From positions 1,352,200 through 1,378,193 of the forward strand of contig KQ482003.1 of the NCBI GenBank assembly GCA_001430745.1: a stretch of DNA of 25,994 nucleotides. Reading direction: 5' to 3'. The notes beneath the pieces are model-generated. The model was not told the DNA's origin. It searched no databases and saw only the letters and a program-made list of their open reading frames with translations. The stretch is from Auxenochlorella pyrenoidosa (Eukaryota; Chlorophyta; Trebouxiophyceae; Chlorellales; Chlorellaceae). Positions within the stretch are counted from its first letter, which is position 1; the number at the start of each line of letters is the position of its first letter. Of this stretch, positions 6,324-25,994 are shown piece after piece. The position numbers and the translations under genes were made by a program.

Positions 6324-8761
6324 CTACTGCCGCTGCCGCTTCCCGTTGGACTGCTGCTGCCCCTGCTGCCCCTGCTGCTGCTGCTGCTGCTTGCGGGCGC
6401 TGGGCGCCAGCACCGTGCCTGACAGGATGAAGCCGCCGCCGTGATTCATGTTCATAGTGGGGTGGGTGCGCAGCGGCAGCACCTGCCACAAGAGGGAGAA
6501 GCCGGGTGCAGGCGGGGGGGGCTGCTGTCGAGACGAGGACCGCCGGCTCTGGGTTGCACGAGTATCAAGCGCCGCGGGCACCGGGTGTGCTGCATGCGGC
6601 CGCCACTGCACGGCACACCCGCAGCGGCGGCAGGGCGCTGGCAGGCAGCGAGGGCGGGCCCGGCCCGCGGCCCACCTGCATCTCCCGCCACCAGCACTCC
6701 TGCAGAGCCAGGTTGGCCACCTCACCCCGGCCGCGCAGCGCATCCAACGCCTCGGCCAGCGGGTGCTGCCAGGGGCTGAAGACGGCCAGCGAGGCGGAGG
6801 GGGCCAGCAGGGGCAGGACGTGCCGCACCAGCGCCAGCGGGCTCAGCGAGCTGGCCGCCAATATGCAGCAGTTGAAGGGCGGGCCCGGGGCCTGCTGCGC
6901 CTGCTGGGGCTGCTGCGCGGGTGCCGCAGCGCCGCCTTGGACCTCCATCGGCTCGCCCCCCTCGCCGGCCGCCTGCTGCTCCTGCTGCTGCTGCTGCTGC
7001 TCGGCTGGCGCTTCCTCCGCCGCTGCCTGCTGCTCCTGCTGCTCGGCCGGCTTGCCCGCCGCCTCCTCTTGCCCGTCAGCCGCCGCTGCCGGCTGCTGCT
7101 GCTCCGCGGCCGCGGGCTGCGCTTCTTCCCCCGCCCGCCGCGCCTCCCCCAGCAGCTCGTGCAGCGGCGCCAAGCGCAGCGCGGCGCGCTGCCCCGCCGG
7201 GAAGTTCATGTGCCGCCAGGCGTCGAGCGCGGGGCGCTTGGCCCCGGGGCCGCCCGCCCAGGCCGACACCACGCAGCCGGCCGAGCCGGCGCCCAGCCGC
7301 TCCAGCGCCGCCGCGCCCACCAGCCCCCCGCAGCCCTCCACCACCAGCACCCGGGCGTGTGGCCCCACGTTGCCCAGGCTGAGCAGCAGGGCCAGGGCGT
7401 CTGCCCGCAGGTAGCCGGTCTTGGCGGGGGAGTTTGCAAAGTAGGCCTCGCACACGGCTGCGGCGGTGGGGCGCCGCACAGTGGCCACCTGGATGTACTT
7501 TTTGGCCTTCTTCTTCCTGCGCGCGGTTCAAGGGGCGGGCACAGCGGAGTCGGGGGCGTGAAGGTGGGGCGGCCAGGCCGGGGCGGTGCCCCGCGCGCCG
7601 CCTGGGCGCCCTGTGACCCTTTGCAGCAACAGCCGCCGGAGTGCAGCACGGCAGCGGGGGCTGTACGGGGAGCCGGGCCGGGGGCAGGCTCGCCTGTACT
7701 TCTCCTGCGAGAACTCGGTCTTGTTGGCAAAGGTGGCCGAGTTGGCGGTGAGGGCGGCCACAATGTCGGCGCCGGTCTTGCCGTCGGCCTGCGCCGCCGG
7801 GTGGGGGCGGGGTTGGGTGTGTGTGGCCGCGGTTCAGCGCACCCACAGACTGCAGGGCTGCCCTGCAAGGCCTCGATGCCCTGCAGCAGGGCGGGGCCGC
7901 CAGGGCGGGAGGGCGACAGCGCCCAGCTGCCCCGTGCGGCAGCAAGGGAAGGACACGGCTCCCGCCGTGCCCTCGCCGGCAAGTCGAATCCACCCGGGGG
8001 GCCCTGGCTGCTGCCCAGCGGCAGGCTCGCCTTCATGGCCTCAATGTCCTCTGCAGACAGGGCCTGGTGGGCAAACCCCGCGTCCACCAGCCCGGCGTTG
8101 GTGCGGGTGTTGAAGTCGGGGCCGTCGGGCAGGTCCCAGTCAGACAGGGGCACGCTGCGGGGTGGGGAGAGGGCAGTGAAGTGTGGATGGGAGGGGCACG
8201 GCAGACCGTACTTGGGGGCTCTGTTCACCGGCGGCGCGGGAGGGGGATCAACATGGAATGGAGAGATCGTATACAGGAAGACCATGTTGCAGCAGCACGA
8301 TGGAACAGAGCTGTCAAGGCAAGAAAACAGCGCAGGTGTTGGTCCTTCGGCGGCAGCGGCGATGGCGGCGGCAAGTGGCAGCAGCACTTACTACTCGGTG
8401 CGCTCCAGCGAGTTCCCGTTTGCGCTCAGGGCGAACATGGAGCCGTACGGGCAGCCCACCAGGGCGGCAGCGGAGCAAAACACCTTGCCCAGCTTGACTT
8501 TGCTGCGGGCAGGGTTGCATCGGTGTTGCATCGGGGGAGGTGCTTCGTCAACAAACTAATCAAGTGATTGGATGACGCTCGGTATAAAGGGAGCATACTG
8601 GAGAGCTCGTTCCGACACTCCCTTGCTGCATATGGCTTCCCGCGTCTCTCCCGCTCTGCGCACGTGTTCTTATCCACCGTGATGAGTGCCTGGCGGTCTC
8701 CATTGATGTCCCAGATGACAGTGTCCCCCTCCCGCACCACTGCAGGATAGGCGCTCGTCAT
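6324..8761 (-). CDS. TRM6: tRNA (adenine-58-N1)-methyltransferase non-catalytic subunit TRM6
   Basis: TRM6/Gcd10 pairs with the catalytic subunit TRM61 to make 1-methyladenosine at position 58 of tRNAs, in the nucleus. It binds tRNA but lacks SAM-binding catalysis. The exons in transcript order are 8761-8664, 8502-8392, 8154-8031, 7788-7694, 7516-6676 and 6482-6324: 475 residues, close to yeast and human lengths. Diagnostic segments are the N-terminal VREGDTVIWDINGD, then VGCPYGSMFAL, AHQALSAEDIEAMK, NSATFANKTEFSQEKY, the decayed Rossmann segment GNVGPHARVLVVEGCGGL (residues about 191-208), and the C-terminal VLPLRTHPTMNMNHGGGF. Residues 273-354 are a Q/A/E-rich insertion, and the tail is Gln-rich. 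Two of the five introns start with GC. It is transcribed away from the cysteine-rich cluster, with about 1.2 kb between the two starts. Confidence 0.93.
6346..6390 (-). repeat. CAG-rich tract encoding the Gln-rich C-terminal tail of TRM6
   Basis: The last exon of TRM6 carries interrupted CAG triplets that encode runs of glutamine broken by glycine, followed by a short basic end (NGKRQRQ). Orthologues usually end near the GGGF.LSG motif, so this tail is an extension. Confidence 0.8.
6883..7128 (-). repeat. Low-complexity Q/A/E insertion inside TRM6
   Basis: The segment encodes residues 273-354 of TRM6, almost entirely Gln, Ala, Glu, Pro and Gly, with a CAG run near 6970-7000. It separates the two halves of the degenerate methyltransferase fold (after HELLGEARRAG, before FNCCILAASSLSPLALVRHV). 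It stays in frame across the whole tract. Confidence 0.85.
7517..7693 (-). other. GC-AG intron in TRM6
   Basis: The exon ends TACAG and the intron begins GCGAGC; the acceptor is CGCGCAG. Splicing here joins FSQEKY-R-KKKAKKYIQV, which matches the conserved TRM6 spacing (human has QEKYIQKKKAKY). No GT donor gives that join. Confidence 0.8.
7789..8030 (-). other. GC-AG intron in TRM6
   Basis: The donor is AAG followed by GCGAGC. Splicing gives EDIEAMK-ADGKTGADIVAAL, which aligns without gaps to the human segment EIEKLKQEGVSGQEIIQAL. Reading on past the donor gives a Gly/Pro-rich stretch unlike the family. Confidence 0.75.
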
Positions 8762-10005: not shown

Positions 10006-12801
10006 ATGCGCGCTCCACCGGGCGTTCTGTACAGGGCGCCTGCGGTCGTCCTTGCGCTCGCCCTCCTGCTGATTGTGCCCCCTGCTGGCTGCCTGGCAAC
10101 AGGCGAGTTAGCCGAGAACACGCAGAAATCATTTTCAGGGCTTCCCCAGTAGCGGGCGACAGGCAGCGAGCGGCAGCAGCAGGTGTTGGATTTCATTAGA
10201 AACGGGCACGTTTTAACATTGGTTGCTAAGGTTGTTTTCAAGCTTGCAAGTGCCCCAGCTTCCTGTGCATCGATGCAGGGGGTGCAGCTCGCGCTGCCAA
10301 CCCCACCATGTGCACGTGAGGAGCTGGGGAGCTGCTTGCAGCGGTGGTCAGCCTGCATGCCTTGCTCATGCAGCCTGCTGGCTTGCTCCGGCCGACCAGA
10401 CAGCCGGTTGGACTGCACAAAAGCTTGCAAGAAATTTGGCGGCAAAGACGTTCTGTGCTTGCTTGCGTGCTGTCCGGTGCAGCATGCATATGCTCGAATT
10501 TGCTGCCGATTGGCGGCAGCTGCCCATGTGTGCCTGGTTGCTGGGCCTGAGGCCGCAGCCGCATCTCACAAGCTCAGCGTCACATGTCTGAACATGTTCA
10601 AAGCTTGCAATGCTGCCACATGCGTCTTTTTTCTTCCCTGCCCGCCCTCCCCCACCCACTGCAGCGACCCCACCTGCGCCACCCGATGCCTCCCGGTTGA
10701 AACCCCCTTTCCGTGCAAGACGTGCGGGATGCACTACAGGCTGGACAGCAACGGCAGATGTCAGCCCTGCAAGGACCCAGCCTGCATGTGAGGGCTGGCC
10801 GGCTGGTATGCCACTCCCATCCCTGCCGCCGTCACTGCTGCTGCTGTACGCCAGCTAAGCTGGCTCTCTTGTTGTCCTGCACTTGAGAGCATCTTGCATG
10901 TTCCTCCAGGCATGCCTAGGGCCGAATCTACTGATGAACCCCTTTTCATTCTCTTCAGGTATTGCGATGCCGCTGCGGACAAGTGCACGCACTGCATCGG
11001 CCAGGAGGGCCTTGCAGGAGGGCCCATTTATGATCTGGTGAATGGCACCTGCAGAGCTCCCAAGGTGAGAGCCAGTTTCCGCTCTGCTGAGCATCAACTG
11101 GATGATTGGCTGGGCCATAGGCCGTATCTTTGCGCACTGGTCGTGCTGATCCCTGCTTGTGGATGGCATCTGGTTACCATAGTGTGGTACACCCTTGATT
11201 GCTGCTTGCGCACGTCGCTCCCTCACCCAGTCCAGTGCGGCTTCGGCTGCATCTACTGCGCACGGAGCGAGAGTGGCAAGCCCACGTGCCGTTCATGCAT
11301 CGATGGGCTAACACCTGTTGAAGGCCAGTGCCAGCCTTTCCCCAACTACAACGCCTACTGCCGCTATGTCCTTGGCAAATGTTTCGACTGCAATCAACCG
11401 TATGCCCTCGGCTACGGCCCGCCGGATGCGGTCGGCAACCGTCCGCGCACCTGCGTGCTGGGCGTCCGCAACTGCTTATACCGCGGCAACATCAACAAGC
11501 CCTCAGAGTGCACCGTGTGCAAAGACGGTGGGCGGATTGGCCATGCTGAGCACCTCTCTGCGGCTTGCTGCCTTGCTGAGCAGGGTCGCCCCAGCCCATC
11601 ATTTTTTGCCAACTCGTGCGCACACATGCCTCCCGCCCTGCCCCATTTGCCCGGCCGCCCCCAGGCTACGGCCCCAGGCGGGGCATCAGCAATTTCAACC
11701 TGGTGGTGGGCGGCTGCGTGCGCTGCGCGGTCCCGCGCTGCACGTCATGCTCCTGGAACGCCACCAAGTGCGACTCGTGCGTTAATGGTTATTCACTTGT
11801 CAACAATACGTGTGTCAAGGTGAAGGTGAGTGGGACGGGTGCATGCAGCCACTGCCCGCCCTTTCAGAGCAAGCAGGCATCTGGGCCTCACCTTCGGCCT
11901 GACCAGCACGGCCAGCCCATGCGCGCATCAGGCACGCTTCTTGTCTGCTCTCGTTCGCTGCAGTGCCCCAGCGGCTGCGGATTCTGCACCTCTCCCTTGC
12001 GGTGCGGCCTAAATGGCTGCCTGAGTGGGCACTTTGATGATCGCAAGGGCGGCTGCGTTCTATGCATCGTACCAAACTGCTCTGTCTGTTACAATAAAAC
12101 AATATGCTATAGTTGCAACGACGGCTTTGTGGCAGTCAATGGCACATGCGTCGCGGTGAGCATTGCGGCGGCACCGCAGCTCAAGCAGCAACGCCTCTGC
12201 TTCTGGTAAAGACGCACAGCCTGTGGCTCACAATGCGGCAAGTGCCGGTCCGTGATTCCAAACATGCTGCTTCAGTGCGGTTGGCCAACCCGTACGCAAG
12301 CCGAGCCCCAACTGATCCTTGGTCCATCCCCATCTGGTCCTGAAGCCACCCACCTTGCTCCCTGCCGCTCTCCCCAGTGCAAGCGGGCCAACTGCAAAAC
12401 CTGTGAATATGGCCCTTCAACGTGCTCTGTCTGCCAGCCGGGCTGGGGTGCGGACGGTGCTGGCGGCTGCATCAACTGTGCCAAGGCCACTGGCGACCCC
12501 AACTGCTCAGCCTGCGGCTCAGTGTCCCCAACCATCTGCGAGGGCTGCAGGGACGGAGCCATCTTGTACTTTGACACACAGGGCCGGCGACGCTGCCTGG
12601 TGAGGCAGGCAGGGTGGGAGGGGGTATCCGGACAGCTGCTGTGCTGCACAAAGCCAGTTGAGCATTTCTCCAGCAACCCACCCCCCTCCCCTGCAGCCCT
12701 GCAAGGTTAGGAACTGCAGCCAGTGCTTCTTCCCCACCATATGTCAGAAGTGCGCTCCTGGCTACGAGCTCCAGCAGAACGGCACGTGCATTGCAGGGTG
12801 A
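10006..12801 (+). CDS. Secreted cysteine-rich repeat protein, copy 1
   Basis: Exons are 10006-10102, 10279-10315, 10665-10787, 10959-11064, 11236-11527, 11665-11825, 11964-12155, 12378-12599 and 12697-12801: 444 residues. Residues 1 to about 31 are a signal peptide (MRAPPGVLYRAPAV, then a Leu/Val core ending PPAGCLA). The mature chain has 62 cysteines in repeated C-x2-C pairs, with recurring GxCxxC and CKDPxC units and several NGT/NAT glycosylation sequons. This resembles furin-like/growth-factor-receptor cysteine-rich repeats or protist surface proteins, by pattern only. There is no C-terminal hydrophobic tail, so soluble secretion or cell-wall location is likelier than a GPI or membrane anchor. 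Intron 1 has a GC donor. It is first of three tandem copies. The function is unknown; candidates are wall component, adhesin or disulphide-rich defence protein. Confidence 0.85.
10103..10278 (+). other. GC-AG intron 1 of cysteine-rich copy 1
   Basis: The signal-peptide exon ends GCAACAG and the intron begins GCGAGTT; the acceptor is CGATGCAG. Copy 2 has GTGAGTT at exactly the corresponding place and the same phase (1), which supports this call. Confidence 0.75.
10279..10315 (+). other. Microexon 2 of copy 1 (37 nt)
   Basis: A 37-nt exon between a phase-1 and a phase-2 intron encodes the link between signal peptide and first cysteine module (…AANPTMC). Without it the signal-peptide exon cannot join exon 3 in the cysteine frame. 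The same exon is seen in copies 2 (28 nt) and 3 (37 nt). Confidence 0.75.
12156..12801 (+). repeat. 3' block nearly identical to copy 3
   Basis: From within intron 7 through exon 9 this region matches 19377-20006. About 180 nt of intron 7 differ at three positions. Intron 8 is identical for its first 85 or so bases, then copy 3 carries a ~10-nt insertion near the acceptor. Earlier introns of the two copies are clearly more diverged. Confidence 0.8.
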
Positions 12802-13204
12802 GCCGCGGCAGCTGCCCTGCGCAATTTGTATCACCGCCTGCAACTGTAAGGCAACTGCTAGGTGATGGCAGTCATGAGATGGAGTGGGGCTGTCGCTCTA
12901 TGATGCTTGGCAATGTGCCAGAGGATGCATGGCACTCGGCAAGCAACTGGGCCAGCAGAGGGTGCAGCAGTTGGCGAAGTGTCGAGCTGCAGGCGTTATC
13001 ACTGGATGCTTTGCACGAAGACCGCCCCACAGACAGCCTTTGCATTAAGGGTTAGGACCCCAGCCACGCTGCCTTGCTAACCTCTTCCGATCAATTTCAA
13101 TGGCGTACACGATTTGTGTGAAGGGTCAGTGCGCGCTGGTCGGAGGTTGCTGCTGATGCCTGCAGAGGCGGTGATGCGCGCCACGCGGTCGCAGCATGCT
13201 GGAT
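12802..13204. other. Spacer between cysteine-rich copies 1 and 2
   Basis: The first ~120 nt correspond to the 3' UTR and resemble the DNA after copy 3. I see no gene in the rest. Confidence 0.5.
12845..12849 (+). terminator. Probable poly(A) signal (TGTAA) of copy 1
   Basis: TGTAA lies 44 nt after the stop, in the context CTGTAAGG, which is repeated after copy 3 at a similar distance. That fits the green-algal UGUAA signal. Confidence 0.55.
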
Positions 13205-13300
13205 AGGAATCGCCTTCCTTGTACGGTTCGGCGCACCCGGTCCTCCCGCACCAGCTTCCTGTGCAAGTTGCAAAGTCTCCCAAGGCCTGGTGAGGCAGCC
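13205..13300 (+). promoter_or_regulatory. Conserved upstream block of copy 2
   Basis: CTTGTACGGTTC, CACCAGCTTC and TGTGCAAGTT are shared, in order and spacing, with the DNA just before copy 3 and more weakly with copy 1. The block sits within 100 nt of the start codon, so it is probably core promoter and 5' UTR. Confidence 0.6.
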
Positions 13301-16300
13301 ATGCGCGCTCCACCGGGCGTTCTGTACAGGGCGCCTGCGGTCGCCCTTGCGCTCGCCCTCGTGCTGATGGAACCGCCTGTCAGCTGCCTTGCTGCCCGTG
13401 AGTTGTCCTTCAAGCTCCGAAAGCACCCGCCACACCCGGCCTGCAGAGGGCCCCTGGCCCTTGCCCGCCTGCCGGGAGGGGCCATCATCCTGGCTGCTTG
13501 CGCAAGGGTGTTTGGCATAGCAGCAGGCCATACTTCCTGGTGTCTTGAGACTGCCCCGCTGTCCTCACGGCCTGCGAATTCTGCTGCATTCCCTGTGGCT
13601 CTGCAGGGGCTGCCGCCAACGTCACCATGTGCAAGTGAGGTGCTGGGCAGCCGCCATTAATGCCGCCAATATTGCTCTTCCAGCTTTTTTGCATCCCTGC
13701 TGCGCTGCTGGGCGGCAGCTTGCATTGCACGTCTTGATCACCCGTCACCAACCGTGACCAATGATGCACGTCACTCAAAGCCTGGCCAGGCTGCACCTCT
13801 TGGCGCTCACCACGATGCCGCCCCCCCGCTTGCCTGTAGCGACCCCCTCTGCGCTTTCGCAGTTTCTTGCGACCCAGGCAGCGCAGTTGGACCATGCTCA
13901 CAATGCATACAGAACTACCGGCTCGTCGACGGCGTCTGCCGTCCCTGCAAGGATCCAGCCTGCGAGTGAGTGCGGGCCGGCAGTACTGCCTCTTTCAATC
14001 AAATAATTGATGTTGCGCCTGTTGCTGATATTGCCGAACCTCATAGCAAGACAGCCCAGCCTTCTTGCGTTGCCCTGCCTGTGAGCCAGAGCGCATGGCA
14101 TGCCAGAAGAAGCAGAAAGAAAGAAAGAAAGATTACGCCTATGGCGTGGGTTGAGGAACTAGCCAGGGCATGCCAGAAGTAGTAAGCGCCTGCCAGTCAC
14201 TACTTCCCTTGCCATCCTTTCTGGTCCTCACGCGCAGCCTGTGCAACGAACGCAACAAGTGCAGTAGCTGCATCGATGCTGGCGATTTCCTCCTTGGTTA
14301 TTACCCGGTGAATGGCACCTGCAAGGGCCCCCGGGTGAGCGCTGCATGCTGCATCGGCGCAAACATTCACTGGGGTCTTCCTTGGAGGCTTGGGCTGGGC
14401 CAGTTGGCAGAGATAGGTTGTACGGTTTGTGCCAGCAGCAGCTGTGCATGCAGTTCAGTCACCCTATCAGCCAGCCAAGGCCCTCTTCAGCAGGGGCAGA
14501 ACAAGCTTCAACCGCTCTGTGCTGCTGCTCCCGAACCGCAGTGCGGCTACGGCTGCATGAACTGCATCATGCCCGCGGGCGGCGGCAAGCCCTCATGCGC
14601 AAGGTGCACCGACGGCCTTCGCATTGTCAACGGGCAGTGCATACCACTGGCCAACTACGACGCCTTCTGCCGATACGATGGCAGGCGGTGCCGGTTCTGC
14701 CAGGGGGCCTCCGTGCAGGTCAACGGCACCTGCGTGCCAAGCCCCCCAAACTGTGTTGGTGCCTTCACAATCAACAACCAAATCAAGTGCCTCGGCTGTC
14801 AGACGGGTGGGTGGCTGCACCAGCCGCTTCAGGCAGCGCACAGCCAGAGCGCCAACCGACTGCCCCTGGGCTGTTGCATGTGTTGGCCAATGGACCCACC
14901 CTGGGCCCCCTTCTCTGTTCCCACACAACTGGCCACGTTCCCCTCGGCCTCCACCGGTTGCGTCCCCTGCTTTTGACGGTTGTGCACCCTGTCCCACCCC
15001 CGCTGCCAGGCTATGGCCCCCGGCTGGGCTTTGATCATCCAGCTCCCTACACAATTGCGGTGAAGGGCGGTTGCGTGCCTTGCTCAGACCCAAACTGCTT
15101 CAAATGCTCCAACAAGGCCACAGAGTGCGACCCCGATGGCTGCAACGCTGGGTATGCCCTTGAGGATGGCAAGTGCTTGGTGAACAAGGTGCGCATGGGC
15201 TGCCCTGGCTGCTCCTGCCTGGCTCGCCTAGCTGTGCTCGCGCACTCGTTATGCATCTTGATGACAGCTGTCGTTCCGCACTTGTGGTCGTATGTGGTCG
15301 GAGAGGCAAGACCCTTATGCGCAGCTGCTGACGTAAGGTGCTGGACTCGCCCTGCTGGTGCCCACCCACCCACCCACCCACGGGCCTGTCTCCCCCTGCC
15401 CTGCCGCCCCGCAGTGCCCAGACCACTGTCGGGCTTGCTCCCAGGCAGACATTCCACAACAAAGGTACTGTGTCGACTGCGAGGATGGGTTCTCCAGTGT
15501 CCCCCGAGGGCTCCCCTTCCTGGGCTCAACATGCGTGCCGTGCAAGGACCCCAACTGCTTGACCTGCGTGGACAAGCCGGCAGTGTGCCAAGCCTGCAAG
15601 GACGGCTTCGTCAACGTCGACGGCAAGTGCGCCAAGGTGAGTGTTCTCCGTTTTGGCAGCACCCCATGCGTGCGTTGGCAACAAAGCAGCAGCATGGGTC
15701 TGTAGCTGCACCTGGTCCTTCTTCCGGGAGCGCCCTGTACTCCATTGCGCTGAGCCGCTACCAACCAACTCAACCTGCCCTCACAGTCTACCTCATGCCG
15801 CCCACTCATTGGCCTCTCGCAGTGCAAGGTGGCGCGTTGCTGGGGGTGCCGCCCTGACCTCACCACCTGCGAATACTGCCAGCCCGGCTGGGGCCGGGAT
15901 GCCTTTGGCCGCTGCACCATCAACTGCGCCAGATCCACCGGCGAGCCCAACTGCGAGCAGTGCAGCACCTCCCGCACCATCTGCGAGGGCTGCCGGCCAG
16001 GCTATTTCCTGTATTTTGACACGCGGGGCCAGCGGCGCTGCCTGGTAAGGGATGGTGGGCAGCTAGAGCGCCTTGCGTAGTGTAGCCAAGCTTGTGGCCA
16101 GCCGGGGCTTGGCTGCACAGCGCAGGGCAGCACAATATTGTTGGATTGAGATGCGGCAAAGTGGCTGCAGCATGTTGGCATGCAAGGACTGTGCCTGCAG
16201 TTGTTGATGAACTGGTCCAACACCGGCCGTTGCTTTTCTCCGGGCTCCGCTCGCTTCTTGCAGGCTGGCAGGGTGAGGAACTGTGCAGCTCACGCCCACC

Positions 16301-16368
16301 CTACCAAGTGTGCTGAATGTAACGACGGCTACGCCCTCCAGCGCAATGGCACGTGCTCCCGAGCCTGA
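13301..16368 (+). CDS. Secreted cysteine-rich repeat protein, copy 2
   Basis: Exons are 13301-13397, 13607-13634, 13840-13965, 14238-14334, 14542-14806, 15010-15188, 15415-15636, 15823-16044 and 16264-16368: 446 residues. The signal peptide is nearly the same as in copy 1 (MRAPPGVLYRAP…PPVSCLA). Sixty mature cysteines match cysteines 1-56, 58 and 60-62 of copies 1 and 3; numbers 57 and 59 are absent (AGR for PCK, AAH for SQC). Exon 7 is 222 nt against 192 in the other copies, yet keeps twelve cysteines. Microexon 2 is 9 nt shorter. All introns start with GT. This is the divergent member of the array. It is intact, with no frameshift or early stop in the model. Confidence 0.83.
13607..13634 (+). 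other. Microexon 2 of copy 2 (28 nt)
   Basis: Flanked by CTGCAG and GTGAGG, it encodes AAANVTMC with a likely N-glycosylation sequon (NVT). It is three codons shorter than in copies 1 and 3 but keeps the phases (1 in, 2 out). Confidence 0.7.
14114..14131. repeat. (AAAG)n microsatellite in intron 3 of copy 2
   Basis: About four AGAA/AAAG units in the intron 13966-14237; not found in the other two copies. Confidence 0.85.
15361..15381. repeat. (CCCA)n microsatellite in intron 6 of copy 2
   Basis: Five CCCA units close upstream of the exon 7 acceptor (15189-15414 intron), forming part of the pyrimidine-rich tract. Confidence 0.85.
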
Positions 16369-16910
16369 GCCGCGGGCCGAACTGGGCCTCTCGCTGCCTC
16401 ACACGCGGCCTGTGCACCTACTGATGCACACGCGGGGCGAGGACGCATCCTCACGCCCTTGCCAGAGCACAGCACCACACTGTGTTCTTTTGCACATATT
16501 CTGGCATACTCTGTCCCAGCCTGCAGCTCCTGTGCATTGCTCTCGGCGTCACTGGTCCGTAATGCAGGGGCGGCCTAGCCTTCCGGGCTCCCGCCCTGCG
16601 CCCATGGCTCGTCTCGTTGACCAGCTCCTAGGCACGTGCTCTTAAAAACTGCAAAGCTCAGAATCGTGGTGCTCGCTCACGCCGCTTTGCCAGATTAGGT
16701 GCGCACGAGGCCAATGATCAGGTCACGGTGCAGTTCGCAGTAGGCCCGCAGGATCGCGGACTAAGGAGGAAGAGTAGCGGCAGGCGTCGCCTTGACAATT
16801 CACCTTCTAAAGAAGTCGGCTTTGAGAAAGACTTGCGACCCTGAACTTCAGTACGCAGCTGTTGGCAGTGCGCGTGCCGATGGTACACAACTGCGGCGCG
16901 CGCAGCATGG
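16369..16910. other. Spacer between cysteine-rich copies 2 and 3
   Basis: No gene recognised. It holds the 3' flank of copy 2, in which I did not find TGTAA, and distal upstream DNA of copy 3. Confidence 0.5.
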
Positions 16911-17236
16911 CTGCTCGCTCACAGCCGCGCCGCATGAACATGCAGCGCAGGGCCCCAGACCGCCATGCTGCCCTGCCATGCTCTCCTGAGTCCATGTAAC
17001 GGCTTCAGCCGCTTGACCCAATTGCATGAAAGACTTGGACATGCTGAATGTTGTGGCACAACAGGATGGATGAACAGGCGCGCGTGGGCGGGCCTGGGGC
17101 AGGCGTGCAGGGCGCTGGCAACATACTGCCGCTGGGGAATTCCCCACGCTCCTTTGTACGGTTCAGCACATCTGGTCCTCACGCACCAGCTTCTTGTGCA
17201 AGTTACAGGCCTCGCAAGGCCCGGCGCCGGGCGGCC
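16911..17236 (+). promoter_or_regulatory. Upstream block of copy 3, shared with copies 1 and 2
   Basis: The distal part matches the DNA before copy 1 (GCTCACAGCCGCGCC, CATGCTGCC, ACGGCTTCAGCC). The proximal part matches copy 2 best (TTGTACGGTTC, CACCAGCTTCTTGTGCAAG). TGTACGG lies about 80 nt before the start. Confidence 0.6.
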
Positions 17237-20006
17237 ATGCGCGCTCCAGCGGGCGTTCTGTACTGGGCGCCCGCCGTCGCCCTCCTGTTGATGGTGCCGC
17301 CTGCCGGCTGCCTATCAACAGGCGAGTTCGAGAGAGAGAACACGCGCATGGGCAGAAAGCATGTTTAGGGCTTTCCCTGTGGCGGGCCGACCGTCGACCG
17401 GCAGCGGCATGTTGGGTTTGGTTGGCAGGTTTAAACCCAGGGGTGCTGGATTTCATTCAAGCTGATCGGTGCATGGCCTCCTGCACTACAATGCAGGGGC
17501 TGCAGCTCGCACTGCCAACCGCACCATGTGCACGTGAGGTGCTGGGCAGCCGCTGCCAGCCATGGTTAGCCTGCATGCCTTGCTCATCCAGCCTGCTTGC
17601 TTGCTTGGGCTGACCAGACAGCCTGTTGGACTGCAAGGAAGGTTGCGAGGAATTTCGCAGGAAAGATGTTCTGTGCTTGCTTGCGTGCTGTCTGGTGCAG
17701 CATGCATGCTGGAATCTGCTGCCGAATGGCGGCAGCTGCCGATGCTGGGTGCTGGCCCTGAGGCCGAGGCCCCTTGTCATTAGCTCAACGCCTCATGTTT
17801 GAGGTTGCTTGAAACCCACCATGCTGCTACATGCGGGCTGACTCTACCCCGCTGGCCCTCCCCACCCACCTGCAGCGATCCCACCTGCGCCGACCAATGC
17901 CTGCCCTTCGAAACTCCCTTCCCGTGCAAGACGTGCCGGGCGCACTACAGGCTGGACAGCAGTGGCAGATGTCGCCCCTGCAAAGACCCAGCCTGCTTGT
18001 AAGGGCTGGCCCGCTGGTAAACAGCTCCCATCCTTGGCACCGTCACTGCTGCTGATGCAACCCAGCTAAGCAGGCTCTCTTCTTGCCTTGCACTTGTGAA
18101 GCATGCAACGCGTGCACCCAGGCGTGCTTGGAGCCCGACTTCCACTGATGCTCTCCGTTCTGCTCCTTTCAGGGAATGCAACGCCGCTGGCGACAAGTGT
18201 ACGCACTGTATCGGTCGGGAAGGCGAATTTTTTGGCTATTTTCCAACCTATCGTCTCGTGAATGGCGCCTGCAGAGCTCCCAAGGTGAGAGGCACACGGT
18301 GCAGTCCAGCATTATGCCAAGAATGCGCTGCTGTCCTGGCCATGACTGGTGCCTGGGGCTTTGAGCCACTTGACGTGTGTGCCCTGAGTGCATTGCAGCA
18401 TTTTACAGGATGTCCCCCCTTGATTCCCCCTTGCACGCCTCACTTCCTCACCAGTGCAGTGCAGCTACGGCTGCATATACTGCATGCCGCGCGGCGGCAA
18501 GCCTACGTGCATTGAGTGCAGCGATGGAATGACGCTTGTTGGCGGGCGGTGCCAGCCTGTCCCCAATTACAACGCCTATTGCCTCTACAGCGGCAAGCAG
18601 TGCATTTACTGCCCTCAGCCATATGTTACTGGCCCCGGCCCGCCAGATGTGGTCGGCAACCGCCCGCAGACCTGTGTGGTTGGCGTTCGCCACTGCGCAA
18701 CTCGCAACAATATTAACAAGCCCTCAGAGTGCCTTGCGTGCAAAGATGGTGGGACACGCAGGCATGCTGAGGCGCTCACTGCAGCTTGTCGCCTTGCTGA
18801 GCACCCCTCACCCCGTAATTATCCGACTCCTAACTCCTAAGCTCACGTGTGCCCCACCCTGCTGCCCTTGCCCGGCCGCCCCCAGGCTACGGCCCCAGGC
18901 GGGGCATAAGCAATTTCGACCTGGTGGTGGGCGGCTGCGTGCGCTGCGCGGTCCCGCGCTGCACGTCGTGCTCCTGGAACGCCACCATCTGCAACTCGTG
19001 TATTGAGGGGTACTCACTTGTCGATAACAAGTGTGTGAAGGTGAGTGGGACATGGGTGCATGCTGATGCGCTTGCTGTGAAAGCAGACAGGAACGCGTGC
19101 GTTGCACCTCCAGCCCGACCACTCGGCATAACCAGCCCGTGCACGCGTCGATTGCGCTTCCAGCCTTCCTCCTCATCGCTGCAGTGCCCCAGCGGCTGTA
19201 TGTCATGCATTTCTCCCTCGCGGTGCTACAGCAATAGCTGCTCAGCGGGGTACTTGTACGACGGCAAGGGCGGCTGCGTCCCGTGCACCCAACCAAACTG
19301 CTCAGTCTGCTACACAAGAAGGACCTGCGACTACTGCCTGGACGGCTTTGTGATAGTCAATGGCACATGCGTCGCGGTGAGTCCAAGACCTCTGCTTCTG
19401 GTAAAGACGCACAGCCTGTGTCTCACAATGCGGCAAGTGCCGGTCCGTGATTCCAAACATGCTGCTTCAGTGCGATTGGCCAACCCGTACGCAAGCCGAG
19501 CCCCAACTGATCCCTGGTCCATCCCCATCTGGTCCTGAAGCCACCCACCTTGCTCCCTGCCGCTCTCCCCAGTGCAAGCGGGCCAACTGCAAAACCTGTG
19601 AATATGGCCCTTCCAAGTGTTCCATCTGCCAGCCGGGCTGGGGTGCGGACGGTACCGGCGGCTGCGTCAACTGTGCCAAGGCCACTGGCGACCCCAACTG
19701 CTCAGCCTGCGGCTCAGTGTCCCCAACCATCTGCGAGGGCTGCAGGGACGGAGCCATCTTGTACTTTGATACACAGGGCCGGCGGCGCTGCCTGGTGAGG
19801 CAGGCAGGGTGGGAGGGGGTATCCGGACAGCTGCTGTGCTGCACAAAGCCAGTTGAGCATTTCTCCAGCAACCCACCCCCTTCCCCTCAATATCCCTGCA
19901 GCCCTGCAAGGTGAGGAACTGCAGCCAGTGCTTCTTTCCCACCATATGTCAGGAGTGCGCTCCTGGGTACGAGCTCCAGCAGAACGGCACGTGCATTGCA
20001 GAGTGA
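17237..20006 (+). CDS. Secreted cysteine-rich repeat protein, copy 3
   Basis: Exons are 17237-17321, 17497-17533, 17876-17998, 18173-18284, 18460-18748, 18886-19040, 19185-19376, 19573-19794 and 19902-20006: 439 residues. The signal peptide is four residues shorter than its paralogues (MRAPAGVLYWAPAVALLL…GCLS). The mature protein has 62 cysteines with the same order and almost the same spacing as copy 1. Sequons include NRT in the microexon plus NAT and NGT. Exons 6, 8 and 9 are close to identical with copy 1 in protein. Intron 1 has a GC donor, as in copy 1. There is no membrane anchor after the signal peptide. The chain is predicted secreted; the role is unknown, as for the other copies. 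Confidence 0.85.
17322..17496 (+). other. GC-AG intron 1 of cysteine-rich copy 3
   Basis: The donor is CAACAG followed by GCGAGTT, the same as in copy 1; the acceptor is CAATGCAG. Phase 1 is conserved in all three genes. Confidence 0.75.
17497..17533 (+). other. Microexon 2 of copy 3 (37 nt)
   Basis: It encodes AARTANRTMC between a phase-1 and a phase-2 intron. Its size equals that of copy 1, and it adds an NRT sequon. Confidence 0.75.
19377..20006 (+). repeat. 3' block nearly identical to copy 1
   Basis: Partner of 12156-12801. The match covers intron and exon alike, which argues for recent sequence exchange and not only protein-level selection. Confidence 0.8.
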
Positions 20007-20619: not shown

Positions 20620-20948
20620 GGGCATCATGAATGCTCGCTCTCTGGATTGATGCCAGTGTGTTTTCTAAACTCTCAGTGTATGTTAGTGCTTATGAGCACT
20701 GGTTGCATGCAGCAGAAGAGTGCCAGGCCCATCTCGGCGGTCTGCTAGAGCGCCATGGATGTCGCTCCCGCTGCCACGTCATGACGCGTCAGTGTTGTTG
20801 TGTGCACCTCTCTTGCAACGTGCGCCTCGCGTCCTCCGTGCGCTTTATGTTGGTGTCCACCCCCCCGCTTTCTGCTTTCAAAGGCGCAGCTGTCTGCTAA
20901 CTGTCGCTGGTCTTCAGTGCCTGCGTTCTGTCCCGAGGCCGGCCGCCA

Positions 20949-23366
20949 ATGGAGGCGGGCTGCGAGGATGTTTTCGATAGTCTGGAAGACATGCACGGCG
21001 CCTACTCCAGCCCGACCTACAGCGGGGGCGGCGGCGTAGCCGCCTTCAGTGTGTCGGCACTGCCTGGCGACAGTGCTGCGTTCGCCAGCGAGGACATAGA
21101 GCTGGCCCTTCAGGAGGCGGAACGGCTGCTAGTTGCCGGCGAGCCGCCTGCTCAGGTGCATCAGATGCAGGCGCAGCCCTACGGCATGCCGCCAGCGGCC
21201 CATCATGCCGGTGGCGCTGCTGGCACCAGTCTGCGGCCGCCAAGCGCCATTTCCCTGGGTGAGGCAGCGATCAACTTGCGGCTGACGCTGCATGAGAAGG
21301 AGCTGGAGCTGCTGGAGCTGCGGGCGCAGTGTGCGCAGCTGGCGGTGAGGGCCTCGGGTCGGCGACAAAAATCGTATGTGCCTTCTTGCTGTGCCTTAGT
21401 ATGGCTTAGGTAGGGCAGGTGTGGACCCCGCTGGCTTCACCTAGGTGCTGCAACATGTCCCCAACAGAGCCTGTCTCGCACATGGCTGCCGCGTATTGGG
21501 CTGCGCGCATGGAGTGTGTGTGCCGCAGCATGTCCACTGGCGTGCACCTCGGCGAATCCTCCTCACACATGCAGGAGCATGGTGAGCACGTGCAGAGGCA
21601 GCTGGAAGCGGGCCTGGAGGGGCGAGACGCCCGGATTGCAGCCCTGGAGGCGGCGGCGGCGCGGCACGAGGCTGCAGCGGCCCGCCTCTCGCAGCAGCTG
21701 GCAGCGTATCGGGGGGTCTCCCCCGAGGCAGCGGCCCGCCTGCAGGCAGACAACGCCGCGCTGCAGGCCGCCAAGAGCAGCGCGGAAGCTGCGGCTGCAG
21801 AGGCGGAGCGGCGGCGGCAGGAGGCAGCTGCGCGAGTGACACAGAGCCTGGGCACCTGGGAGCGCGTGCAGGCCGAGCTGCAGGCAGACAATGCCCGGCT
21901 GGCGGCAGAGGTGGAGCGGCAGCGGCGCGAGCTGGCCGACGTGTTCCAGGAGAAGGAAGTGTACCGGGCGCGGGCCGCCATGCTGGAGGCCAGGGCGGGG
22001 CCGGCAGTGGCGGCGGTGCAGGCTGCAGGGCAGGCGGCCTCAAGGCCGGGCGAGGCCGCGCAGCTGCGGGAGCAGCTGGCAGCAGCACTGGAGCGGCTGG
22101 CGGGGCGGGATGGCGCGGCGAAAAAGTACAAGGTGGGGGCGGCAGCTGGGCAGGGGGGGTGCTGCATCGTGCTTGCCACCGCATGCTGCACCGTTTCCAG
22201 GTGGCCCCACGCCATGCGCAATGCTGGGCACCGTTGCATGGGCCGGCTGCAGCAGCCTGCCAACTCCACCCGCCTGTGCGCTCCTTGTGCCGCCACGCGA
22301 CTGCCTGTAGGAGGCAGTGCGTGCGCTCAAGCGCCGCACAGCCGAGCTGGAGCAGCAGTTGGCAGCCGCCCGCAGCGCCGAGGCCGCCGCCGCGTCACAG
22401 GCGCAGGCGGGCACGGCGCAGCAGGCGGCGACGCTGCAGCAATGCGAGCGGCAGCTGGCAGAGGCACAGCAGCAGTGCGAGCAGTATGGGGCGCGGCTGG
22501 CGCAGCTGGAAGGGCAGCTGAGGAAGGCGGAGTTTGAGCGGGCGCAGCTGGAGTGGCGGGCTCAGGCAAGGCATGGTCCACGGCTGCATGCACCGGCTGG
22601 TGTCGCCCCATGGCAGCTCTGATGCTGCCTGGGGGCTGCGGGCATCACATAGCTTGGGTGTGTGGGATCGCATGCAGGGACACCTGCATCCATCGGGCTG
22701 GAAGTACAAAAGGCGGGCAGGCACCCTGGCCCTTGCGCCTCCCACACCCATGCAGGATGCCGAGCAGCGCGCACAGAGCGCCAGCGATGCAGCCGATGCC
22801 TCCAGCGCCGCGGCCGCTGGCCTGGCCGACAAGCGGCGGGCGCAGGCGGAGGGGCGGCTGGCAGAGGCTGAAGCCCAGGCCAAGGCTGCCTCGCTCAAAG
22901 CGCTGGTGGGGGCTGCCATGTGGGGGCTGCCTGGTTTGAGCGCCAGCGGCAGGCTGCATGCTGTGATTGCTGGTGCACAGGGCACCTCGTGCTGCGCTGG
23001 GCGCACGGATGGAGACGCCTTGCATGCCTGCTGTGCGCTGCGGTGTCCTCACCCTGCCCTGCTGCCCTGGCCCCCGCCGGTCAGCAATTGGAGAAGGCGC
23101 TGGCGGCGGCGCGGCGGGAGCTGTCGGCCCTGCAGCAGCGGCAGGATGCGCAGGCCGAGGCCGCGGCCCGGCACGAGCAGAAGCTGCTGCAGCAGCAGGT
23201 GGCGGCCCTCAGGTCCAGGCTGGCGGCTGCGGAGCAGGAGCTGTGCACCAAAGCGGCGGCGCTGGCGGCGGCCGACAAGCGCCTGCGGCACTCGCAACTC
23301 ATCCTGCAGCGCGTGGCCAGCAGGGGTGGCAGCGGCGGAGCCCCCCTCGGCGTGGGCGCTGCGTGA
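20949..23366 (+). CDS. Coiled-coil protein of unknown function
   Basis: Exons are 20949-21344, 21575-22132, 22311-22565, 22756-22905 and 23085-23366, all joined in phase 0: 546 residues. The first ~100 residues are acidic then Gly/Ala/Pro-rich (MEAGCEDVFDSLEDMHGAYS…). From about residue 104 to 530 the chain is nearly continuous heptad-like coiled coil rich in Ala, Glu, Gln, Arg and Leu (e.g. ARIAALEAAAARHEAAAARL, ALKRRTAELEQQLAAARSAE). The end is Gly-rich. There are no membrane segments and no recognisable catalytic domain. Such proteins are often cytoskeletal, centrosomal/basal-body or golgin-like, but composition alone cannot tell. The start fits a leader ending GGCCGCCAATGG. Intron 3 uses a GC donor. 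Confidence 0.75.
22566..22755 (+). other. GC-AG intron 3 of the coiled-coil gene
   Basis: The donor is GCTCAG followed by GCAAGG, the best-known GC-donor context; the acceptor is CCATGCAG. The join gives LEWRAQ-DAEQRAQSAS and keeps phase 0 and the coiled-coil pattern. Reading on gives a stop at 22621. Confidence 0.75.
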
Positions 23367-24205: not shown

Positions 24206-25994
24206 TCAGGCATCCGCGGCGGCTGCTGGCGGCGCCTGCTGCTGCTGCAACGGCTGCGCCTGCGGCTGCGCCTGTTGCCCGACAGGCGCCATAATTGGCG
24301 GCGCTGCGGGCGCCGCAGCGCCAGCTGCTGCGCCGCTGCTGGCTGCAGAGGCCGCTGCTGCCGTTGCTGATGCCATGATGGGCACGGAGCTGCTGGGAGC
24401 GCCGGTTCCCGCCTGGGGCGCAGGGGTGACGCTGGGCGAGGGCAGCGTGCCCGGGAACTGCGGCGGGGGGTGGCAGAAGAGCAGAGGAGTGTCAGGACCA
24501 GCAACTGATAACAAAAAGCCGCCACCGGTGGCCGCGCACACCGGACCTTGCTTCAGCCGCTGCCCGCATTCATGCGCCAGCGGGGCGTGGGCCGCGCAGC
24601 GCCCTGCCAGCAGCAGCAGGCTTGCGCCCGCTCTGTGCGCACAGCCCCTGGCGGTGCGCAGGCATGGCCGGCCCCCCCATGCCCCGCACCTGCTCCACCT
24701 CGCCCGCCAGCGCGCCGTCGCTGTGGAACAGGATGGGCCGGCAGCGCTTGTCCTCGTGCAGCAGGCTGGAGTTCTGGAAGTGCTGCACCAGCGCCGCCTT
24801 GCCCTGTGGGCGGCAGCCGAGGGAGGGAGGGGGGGCAGACGAGCAGGGGTTGTTGGTGCAGATGGCGAGGGGTGCGGGCAGCATGCGGCGACCGGCGCGA
24901 GGCGGGCTGGAGCCGAGCCTCCCTCTCGGGCCTGCGGGCCGGCCAGCAGCCAGGCCCACCTGGATGCGGCCGTACGCGATGTGGCAGATCTTCTCGCTGT
25001 TGAACTTGGGCCACTTCTTGCCGTGCAGCTCCTCCACAAAGGGGATGATGTACTCGGGCCGCACCTGCGCAAGAGTTTACACAGTTTAAACTCGAAAGAA
25101 GCCGTGGCGGCAATGCACCCGGCGGCAGCAAGCGCGCACATGCAAGCGTCGAGCGGCGGCTAGGCGCTGCACGCTCCTGCCACCCACATCAAGCACCCAA
25201 CAACAAAAACGACATTGCTCACCATGTTGATAAAGGCATACCCAACGTTGCACTTGTTTTTGAAATCGATGGGTAAGTAGAAGAAGTCGAACATGCCGCG
25301 GAAGCGCTCCTCCACCAGCTGCAGCGGGAAGGTGGAAAATGGCGGATAATCACTATATTTATACCAGGCAACAAGAACAAGAACATGAGGGCCGGCGGAA
25401 AACGGGCGGGCAGTGCAGCCGAAGAGGTTCAAGCGAGCCTCCCTGGAGGATGCCCTGCCGCTGCCGCTGCCCACGCCACGTACAGGCCACCAGCTTGCTC
25501 GAGCGGCTCGTCCACTCCAGGCTCGAAAGAGACAGCAAAGGCCAGGGCAGCAAAGACCAGCCCTCACCGCCAGCAGCATCTTCTGGGTGTACTTGTTGGG
25601 GATGTTCTTCACCATGAGCGTGGTGCGCTTGTCCTCGCCCGCCCGGATTTTGTTCAGGTCGAGCGAGTAGAGCTTCTCCTGCGGGGGGGGAGGCAGGGCG
25701 GGGTGGGGAGTTGCCTGGTGGGTGGGGGCGTGAGCGAGGGCACGGGCCAGGCAGGAACGCACGACAGGGGGGTGCCAAGCCAGCTTATCCTGAGCTGCAA
25801 CAGAGGACTGCAGGTGGAGCGCATGCCTCCCCCAGGCGGCCGCTGCCAGCGCCCCGGCGGCGGGCCAGCTGCTGCCTGCAGCGGCGCGGCCGCACCTGCT
25901 GCATGCGGCGCTCCGCCTCTGCCACGGGGTCCAGGGGGCGGCGGGCGAGGCGGCCTCCCAGCGGCGGCTCCGCCACCCTGCGGGTGGCCAGCAG
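24206..25994 (-). CDS. Mei2-like RNA-binding protein, 3' part (5' end outside window)
   Basis: Exons in transcript order are 25994(cut)-25896, 25678-25568, 25318-25223, 25064-24960, 24803-24690 and 24457-24206, all phase 0: 258 residues visible. The part covers the C-terminal RRM typical of Mei2-like proteins (RRM_2), which in fission yeast Mei2 and plant AML/TEL proteins binds RNA and controls meiosis or development. Visible marks are EKLYSLDLNKI, RTTLMVKNIPNKYTQKMLL (RNP2 region), DFFYLPIDFKNKCNVGYAFI (RNP1 region), GKKWPKFNSEKICHIAYGRI and GKAALVQHFQNSSL…DKRCRPILF. The last 83 residues are an Ala/Pro/Gln-rich tail. The N-terminal RRMs expected in AML-type proteins would lie right of the window. 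The last-exon acceptor at 24457 is the least certain splice site. Confidence 0.92.

Follow-up and report, generated by a model that had tools for sequence, protein, structure and literature searches.

The green alga Auxenochlorella pyrenoidosa carries a cluster of genes for cysteine-rich proteins that we tentatively describe as a family of secreted proteins built of eleven FU (furin-like) modules, with surface recognition or adhesion through module 10 as their possible role. The DNA analysed, referred to as the window, comprises 25,994 nucleotides of contig KQ482003.1 (positions 1,352,200–1,378,193; assembly GCA_001430745.1), and the cluster occupies positions 10006–20006 of it. Position 10006 is the A of the ATG of copy 1, and 20006 is the final stop-codon base of copy 3. 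Copies 1, 2 and 3 are named A1, B1 and A2 after their subtypes. The genome examined totals 51.6 Mb in 65 contigs, with the cluster contig labelled C30, and a genome-wide protein search found at least five genes of this kind on C30, the three in the window and two extra copies, A3 and B2. Subtype A has three genes (A1, A2 and A3) and subtype B two (B1 and B2). The original prediction of a three-copy array holds for the window, where the family is locally expanded, but not for the genome, which has five or more such genes, with A3 and B2 in inverted orientation. A distance of 42.6 kb separates the window group from this inverted pair at their closest ends.

10006..12801, + strand: gene A1 (444 aa); exons 10006-10102, 10279-10315, 10665-10787, 10959-11064, 11236-11527, 11665-11825, 11964-12155, 12378-12599, 12697-12801
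13301..16368, + strand: gene B1 (446 aa); exons 13301-13397, 13607-13634, 13840-13965, 14238-14334, 14542-14806, 15010-15188, 15415-15636, 15823-16044, 16264-16368
17237..20006, + strand: gene A2 (439 aa); exons 17237-17321, 17497-17533, 17876-17998, 18173-18284, 18460-18748, 18886-19040, 19185-19376, 19573-19794, 19902-20006
C30:1417918-1414843, opposite strand: gene A3, intact, nine exons, same phases
C30:1421815-1418828, opposite strand: gene B2, intact, nine exons, same phases, exon 8 slightly longer

Exon-by-exon rebuilding of the window genes gave nine exons each and open frames of 444, 446 and 439 residues. The phases after exons 1–8 are identical in A1, B1 and A2 (1-2-2-0-1-0-0-0), and every acceptor is AG. 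In comparisons among copies (four pairs that share genes and are not fully independent), all 18 exon indels are multiples of three, as are 19 of the 115 intron indels. Synonymous change exceeds replacement change in all ten pairs of the five genes (dN/dS 0.39–0.58). The protein database also contains a relative, P0002, whose 438-aa frame lies on a contig of 1396 bases; it can be aligned over its full length with no intron and is open across all eight intron positions. Because exon indels keep the frame, dN/dS is below 1 in every pair and P0002 is intronless, the exon models are well supported, and the predicted set of three intact nine-exon genes with the same intron phases is borne out. A strict six-cysteine module pattern has 15 matches in the window, all of them on the + strand within 11236–19994; the mean was 0.0 matches in 20 mononucleotide shuffles of the window. 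An array of chance frames or pseudogenes was ruled out, as all five genes are open with conserved phases and the exon indels in the four pairs are frame-keeping. The genes of the cluster are intact and well formed, and their family, although its architecture is of a known type, has apparently not been described before.

The modules map onto the exons as follows, with a signal peptide at the start of each product and module 11 at its end:

A1 10006..10102, B1 13301-13397, A2 17237-17321, + strand: exon 1, signal peptide; sole strong hydrophobic stretch in each product of the five genes
A1 10103..10278, A2 17322-17496, + strand: intron 1, GC-AG, also in A3 outside the window; GT-AG instead in B1 and B2
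A1 11964..12155, B1 15415-15636, A2 19185-19376, + strand: exon 7, phase 0-0, modules 7-8
A1 12378..12599, B1 15823-16044, A2 19573-19794, + strand: exon 8, phase 0-0, modules 9-10, with the strongest conservation of the family in module 10
A1 12697..12801, A2 19902-20006, + strand: exon 9, module 11, spacing C-4-C-2-C-5-C-2-C-11-C
16264..16368, + strand: exon 9 of B1, module 11 without its first and third cysteines

Past the signal peptide, A1 divides into eleven modules; six cysteines in each of nine modules and four in each of modules 4 and 5 account for all 62. The commonest spacing is C-4-C-2-C-5/6-C-2-C-10/11-C; modules 1, 2, 3, 7 and 10 differ in at least one gap, and the range for a full module is C1-x3 to 8-C2-x2 to 5-C3-x5 to 10-C4-x2 to 4-C5-xn-C6. 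In every sequence spanning them, modules 4 and 5 each have only four cysteines, and C1 and C3 are most plausibly the missing ones. Phase-0 introns of the window genes coincide with the first cysteine in modules 3, 7 and 9, and in module 11 the intron precedes that position by one codon. The donor of intron 1 tracks the subtype, being GC in 3 of 3 A genes and GT in 2 of 2 B genes. The mature proteins (past residue 32) have 62 cysteines in A1 and A2 and 60 in B1; the ordered series of 62 first described for all copies is therefore correct for the two A genes but not for B1. Whole proteins of the five genes have 61–63 cysteines, and the mature counts are even in all five. Their alignment has 64 columns with cysteine, 60 of them invariant, with one invariant cysteine inside the signal peptide. 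C1 and C3 are missing from module 11 in B1 and B2 but present in P0002, which branches with the B genes. In module 7, A and B are unlike in two more cysteine columns, which we read as a single cysteine displaced by the alignment.

The paired loss in module 11 bears on how the cysteines may be joined. HER3 furin-like domains are described with the disulphide pattern ABABCCDD, in which 1 pairs with 3 (PMC8248824), and the algal modules would have the ABAB-CC part of this logic, and a cysteine ladder, in common with HER3-type receptors. A random pair among 62 cysteines consists of predicted partners in 31 of 1891 cases. Because the B genes lost exactly two predicted partners, C1 and C3, the loss is good evidence for disulphides in this pattern, and each full module would then pair its cysteines 1-3, 2-4 and 5-6.

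The recurring cysteine spacing expected of the FU class is present in eleven modules, as predicted, and the closest likeness is to the Fu1–Fu2 region of the secreted R-spondins RSPO1 and RSPO2. An RSPO1 stretch is spaced 4-2-5-2-10, against 4-2-5-2-11 in module 11. In a profile search of PDB sequences, R-spondin-2 accounted for the only four of 177635 sequences at E ≤0.01, the best of them at E 0.0024. Structure prediction, which had been proposed as a check, gave a model of low confidence; in a Foldseek search with it, every one of the top 26 rows was an R-spondin chain. Growth-factor receptors combine ligand-binding L domains, a membrane helix and a kinase, whereas the algal proteins have none of the three. 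R-spondins are reported to have two FU domains, each with four disulphides and built as a ladder of β-hairpins (PMC3905715), and also to carry a TSR domain and a basic tail (PMC4533229). The algal proteins differ in having eleven six- or four-cysteine modules up to the C-terminus and nothing else, and Pfam scans of them found no TSR; with eleven modules rather than two, and no TSR, membership of the R-spondins was ruled out. No Wnt context came to light, although no search was aimed at one.

Several observations weigh against this assignment. The R-spondin profile match is composition-biased, and the profile and the fold give only weak matches to FU repeats, the fold match resting on a weak model. 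No furin-like or growth-factor-receptor Pfam model matched at E ≤1 in any of the seven members scanned, namely the five genes, P0002 and a second relative, P0003. Nor does the pairing pattern separate FU from EGF-like domains, which are described as pairing 1-3, 2-4 and 5-6 as well (PMC10214685). Since that pattern is common to both, it is the spacing and the R-spondin matches that carry the FU assignment; since no curated model matches, we call the proteins FU-like rather than filing them under a Pfam furin family. The FU class is thus supported, not proved. With a biased profile match and a pairing shared with EGF-like domains, we put the probability of the whole reading, from FU architecture to a surface role of module 10, at about 0.42.

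Secretion of the proteins is likely. The predicted signal peptide is confirmed as the only strong hydrophobic stretch of each product. Past residue 45, the five genes encode no strongly hydrophobic stretch (best 17-residue mean 0.95 with cysteine scored 0, and 1.26 with cysteine scored 2.5). Each protein has 4–9 N-x-S/T sites. We envisage secreted glycoproteins that consist of a signal peptide and eleven FU modules only. The chain would fold oxidatively in the endoplasmic reticulum into a ladder of short β-hairpins, forming a rod with 31 disulphides in A and 30 in B. With no visible anchor or enzyme domain, the product would be released to the periplasm, the wall or the medium. Its job, at a guess, would be recognition or adhesion at the cell surface, where module 10, in exon 8, may be the conserved part that makes contact, with the faster-evolving modules serving as a rigid spacer whose surface varies. 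Of the roles in the original prediction (cell surface, adhesion or defence), adhesion and defence are conjectural.

Module 10 stands out in the comparison of the seven sequences. Outside the invariant cysteines, its identity averages 69%, compared to 29–54% in the other ten modules. The dN/dS values for module 10 are 0.05/0.31 between B1 and B2 and 0.12/0.53 between A1 and A3. If the proteins have a functional surface, this pattern of conservation makes module 10 the likeliest place for it.

The five genes form two related blocks. DNA self-comparison aligns B2–A3, including the intergenic spacer, with B1–A2 in inverted orientation at 69–73% identity, and A1 with A2 as a direct pair over 3.4 kb at 76% identity. 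One part of A1 is closer to A2:

12156..12801, + strand: 3' end of A1 from intron 7 through the stop codon, 84–95% identical by segment to A2 19377-20006, introns included

The other introns of A1 and A2, outside this part, are 52–79% identical. This likeness at the 3' end is probably due to a conversion or exchange between the two genes in the recent past. An unrooted tree places P0002 with the B genes and P0003 on the A side, and the A/B split therefore probably predates separation from the species of P0002 and P0003. The likely order of events would be the A/B split, an inverted block duplication of the B–A pair, a further local A copy and a later exchange between A1 and A2.

P0003 is a 321-aa sequence from a 1710-base contig that spans modules 3–11. 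P0002 and P0003 appear to be spliced transcripts of relatives, which is most likely for P0002. Within residues 1–12, where the exon 4/5 junction falls, P0003 is longer by a few residues, perhaps because of a shifted acceptor. These two were the close matches among nine in the protein database search; three others were unspliced window frames (P0001, P0004 and P0008) and four were distant (E 4e-12 to 1.5e-6). The only named relative among the matches is P0005, the Spironucleus cysteine-rich membrane protein CRMP2 (E 4e-12, 25% identity). Neither these nine matches nor the three of another search of the database came from a named alga, even though it includes proteins of Micractinium tetrahymenae, Chlorella sorokiniana, C. 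variabilis, Parachlorella kessleri and Auxenochlorella; this is not proof of absence, as the search needed shared 5-residue words, scored only the 7995 candidates sharing most words, was limited in length and met gene models that may be wrong. Scans with two short profile patterns, which distant relatives could escape, matched 26 stretches in viral contigs and 40 in genome contigs searched for prokaryotic relatives, and none was confirmed in either set. No Pfam family passed its cut-off in the seven sequences, no NCBIfam family was found at cut-off, and the papers listed in searches of the open-licence PMC literature included no account of such an algal family, with nothing on it in passages of PMC12902096 and PMC10762512 either; this is in keeping with the original prediction, in which no described algal family was recognised. 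The family is apparently lineage-restricted.

The main alternative, which we consider rather unlikely, is a structural protein of the wall or extracellular matrix, whose stiff rods would build up the Chlorella-type wall by packing or cross-linking and bind no specific ligand. The signal peptide, the many cysteines and the lack of a visible anchor would all suit such a protein, as would the moderately fast evolution of most modules around conserved cysteines, and the side-by-side position of A and B in both blocks would suit a two-part assembly. A uniform rod, however, does not explain why module 10 is so much more strongly conserved. Green-algal wall glycoproteins are rich in hydroxyproline and proline, whereas proline is not concentrated in the algal FU-like proteins (at most 6 in any 20 residues).

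It is quite unlikely that the proteins are variable surface antigens or decoys of the kind of the Giardia VSPs, with copies diversified by duplication and conversion and a surface that shifts under pressure from viruses, bacteria or grazers. Local duplication and the A1–A2 exchange are consistent with this, and so are the distant match to P0005 and a similarity to Giardia VSPs that stays below the cut-off. CxxC-rich furin-like repeats are shared with Giardia VSPs and Spironucleus CRMPs. The Giardia VSP model (PF03302, cut-off 31.4 bits) gives scores below its cut-off in five of the seven members (P0003 23.1, A2 19.2, P0002 18.5, A3 12.3 and A1 11.3 bits) and none in B1 and B2. Run on the genome, the model has a single match, on C23, outside the window and again below the cut-off. 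The diplomonad proteins are described as large families with membrane-anchored members and CRGKA and GGCY motifs (PMC1805757). In contrast, the module 9–10 exon as query finds only five genes and one weak match on C8 (E 0.006), none of the five products has a membrane tail, and the CRGKA and GGCY motifs are absent from all five. Selection is purifying overall, so that nothing at the level of whole genes points to diversifying selection, which an arms-race antigen would be expected to show. VSP membership itself was ruled out by scores below the Pfam cut-off, the lack of a membrane helix past residue 45 and the lack of a CRGKA tail.

That the modules are EGF-like, or another disulphide repeat in the same rod architecture, is improbable. 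The shared pairing and the weakness of the FU profile and fold matches leave some room for it. EGF domains have one residue between the fourth and fifth cysteines, compared to 2–4 in the algal modules, no Pfam EGF family matched at E 1 in the seven members, and the top fold rows are R-spondins; spacing and Pfam results together ruled out EGF-like membership.

A self/non-self or mating recognition pair, with A and B acting together, is very improbable. Its model would be Tetrahymena MTA and MTB, paired genes whose products are described as membrane proteins with furin-like repeats, assembled by programmed DNA rearrangement (PMC3608545, PMC8777248) and bearing five C-terminal membrane helices (PMC8777248). 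A and B adjoin in both blocks, and their split seems, from the unrooted tree, older than the separation from P0002 and P0003. The function of the MTA/MTB repeats is, however, called unknown in the relevant passages of the same two papers. The likeness is one of repeat type only. MTA and MTB are multi-pass membrane proteins and divergently transcribed, whereas the algal genes lie on one strand per block with predicted soluble products and no DNA rearrangement, and no sex-linked context was seen. Membership of MTA/MTB was ruled out, as the algal proteins have no second strongly hydrophobic stretch. An extracellular metal binder with free chelating thiols might be suggested by the 61–63 cysteines of the five proteins but is barely credible, since even mature counts, paired loss in B, FU-like spacing and the export signal favour disulphides.

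By the strict pattern, more FU-like six-cysteine modules occur at six other genome loci: 8 on C63, 5 on C41, 3 and 2 on C2, 2 on C30 (counted over C30:1155500-1165499) and 1 on C23. They are more distant and suggest a wider class of FU-like-module proteins in this alga.

C63:290622-294694 (L045): FU-like locus
C41:169555-172422 (L064): FU-like locus
C2:2364054-2364245 (L061): FU-like locus
C2:2489007-2493021 (L062): FU-like locus
C23:494458-494544 (L063): FU-like locus
C30:1160490-1162827 (L046): FU-like locus

Other frames in the window are:

1616-2836, + strand: leucine-rich-repeat (LRR) frame, repeats 72 bases apart at 1888-2247, best Pfam match LRR_14
6568-7527, - strand: exon of tRNA methyltransferase subunit TRM6 (Gcd10p)
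20904-22534, + strand: Ala-, Glu- and Gln-rich frames, coiled-coil look on visual inspection; two stretches scanned, neither with a Pfam match
24573-25076, - strand: RRM_2 frame

Among named proteins, the TRM6 exon is 68% identical over 86% to Micractinium tetrahymenae and 57–58% over 86% to Chlorella sorokiniana and C. variabilis; some other matches are more alike over shorter stretches. By this exon the DNA falls near Micractinium and Chlorella and most likely belongs to a member of the Chlorella group. RRM_2 is found in Mei2-like RNA-binding proteins. Three neighbouring frames had no Pfam match. The scanned neighbours (LRR, TRM6, RRM_2 and the three matchless frames) give no clue to function.

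The best-known carriers of furin-like repeats are animal receptors and R-spondins, the mating-type proteins of ciliates and the surface antigens of diplomonads. A Chlorella-group alga with a protein of eleven FU-like modules and no other domain, encoded by a small A/B cluster in a genome that has more FU-like loci, would show that green algae too use this extracellular module. A bolder proposal, and a very doubtful one, is that A and B form a paired, fast-evolving surface recognition system, with a putative binding site in module 10, that serves self/non-self discrimination, mating or the choice of partners. To our knowledge, sex and cell recognition of Chlorella-like species are largely uncharted, and such a pair, if real, would mean that green algae have a recognition system based on furin-like repeats. 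The cluster offers a defined set of intact genes and one conserved module with which a surface role may be tested.
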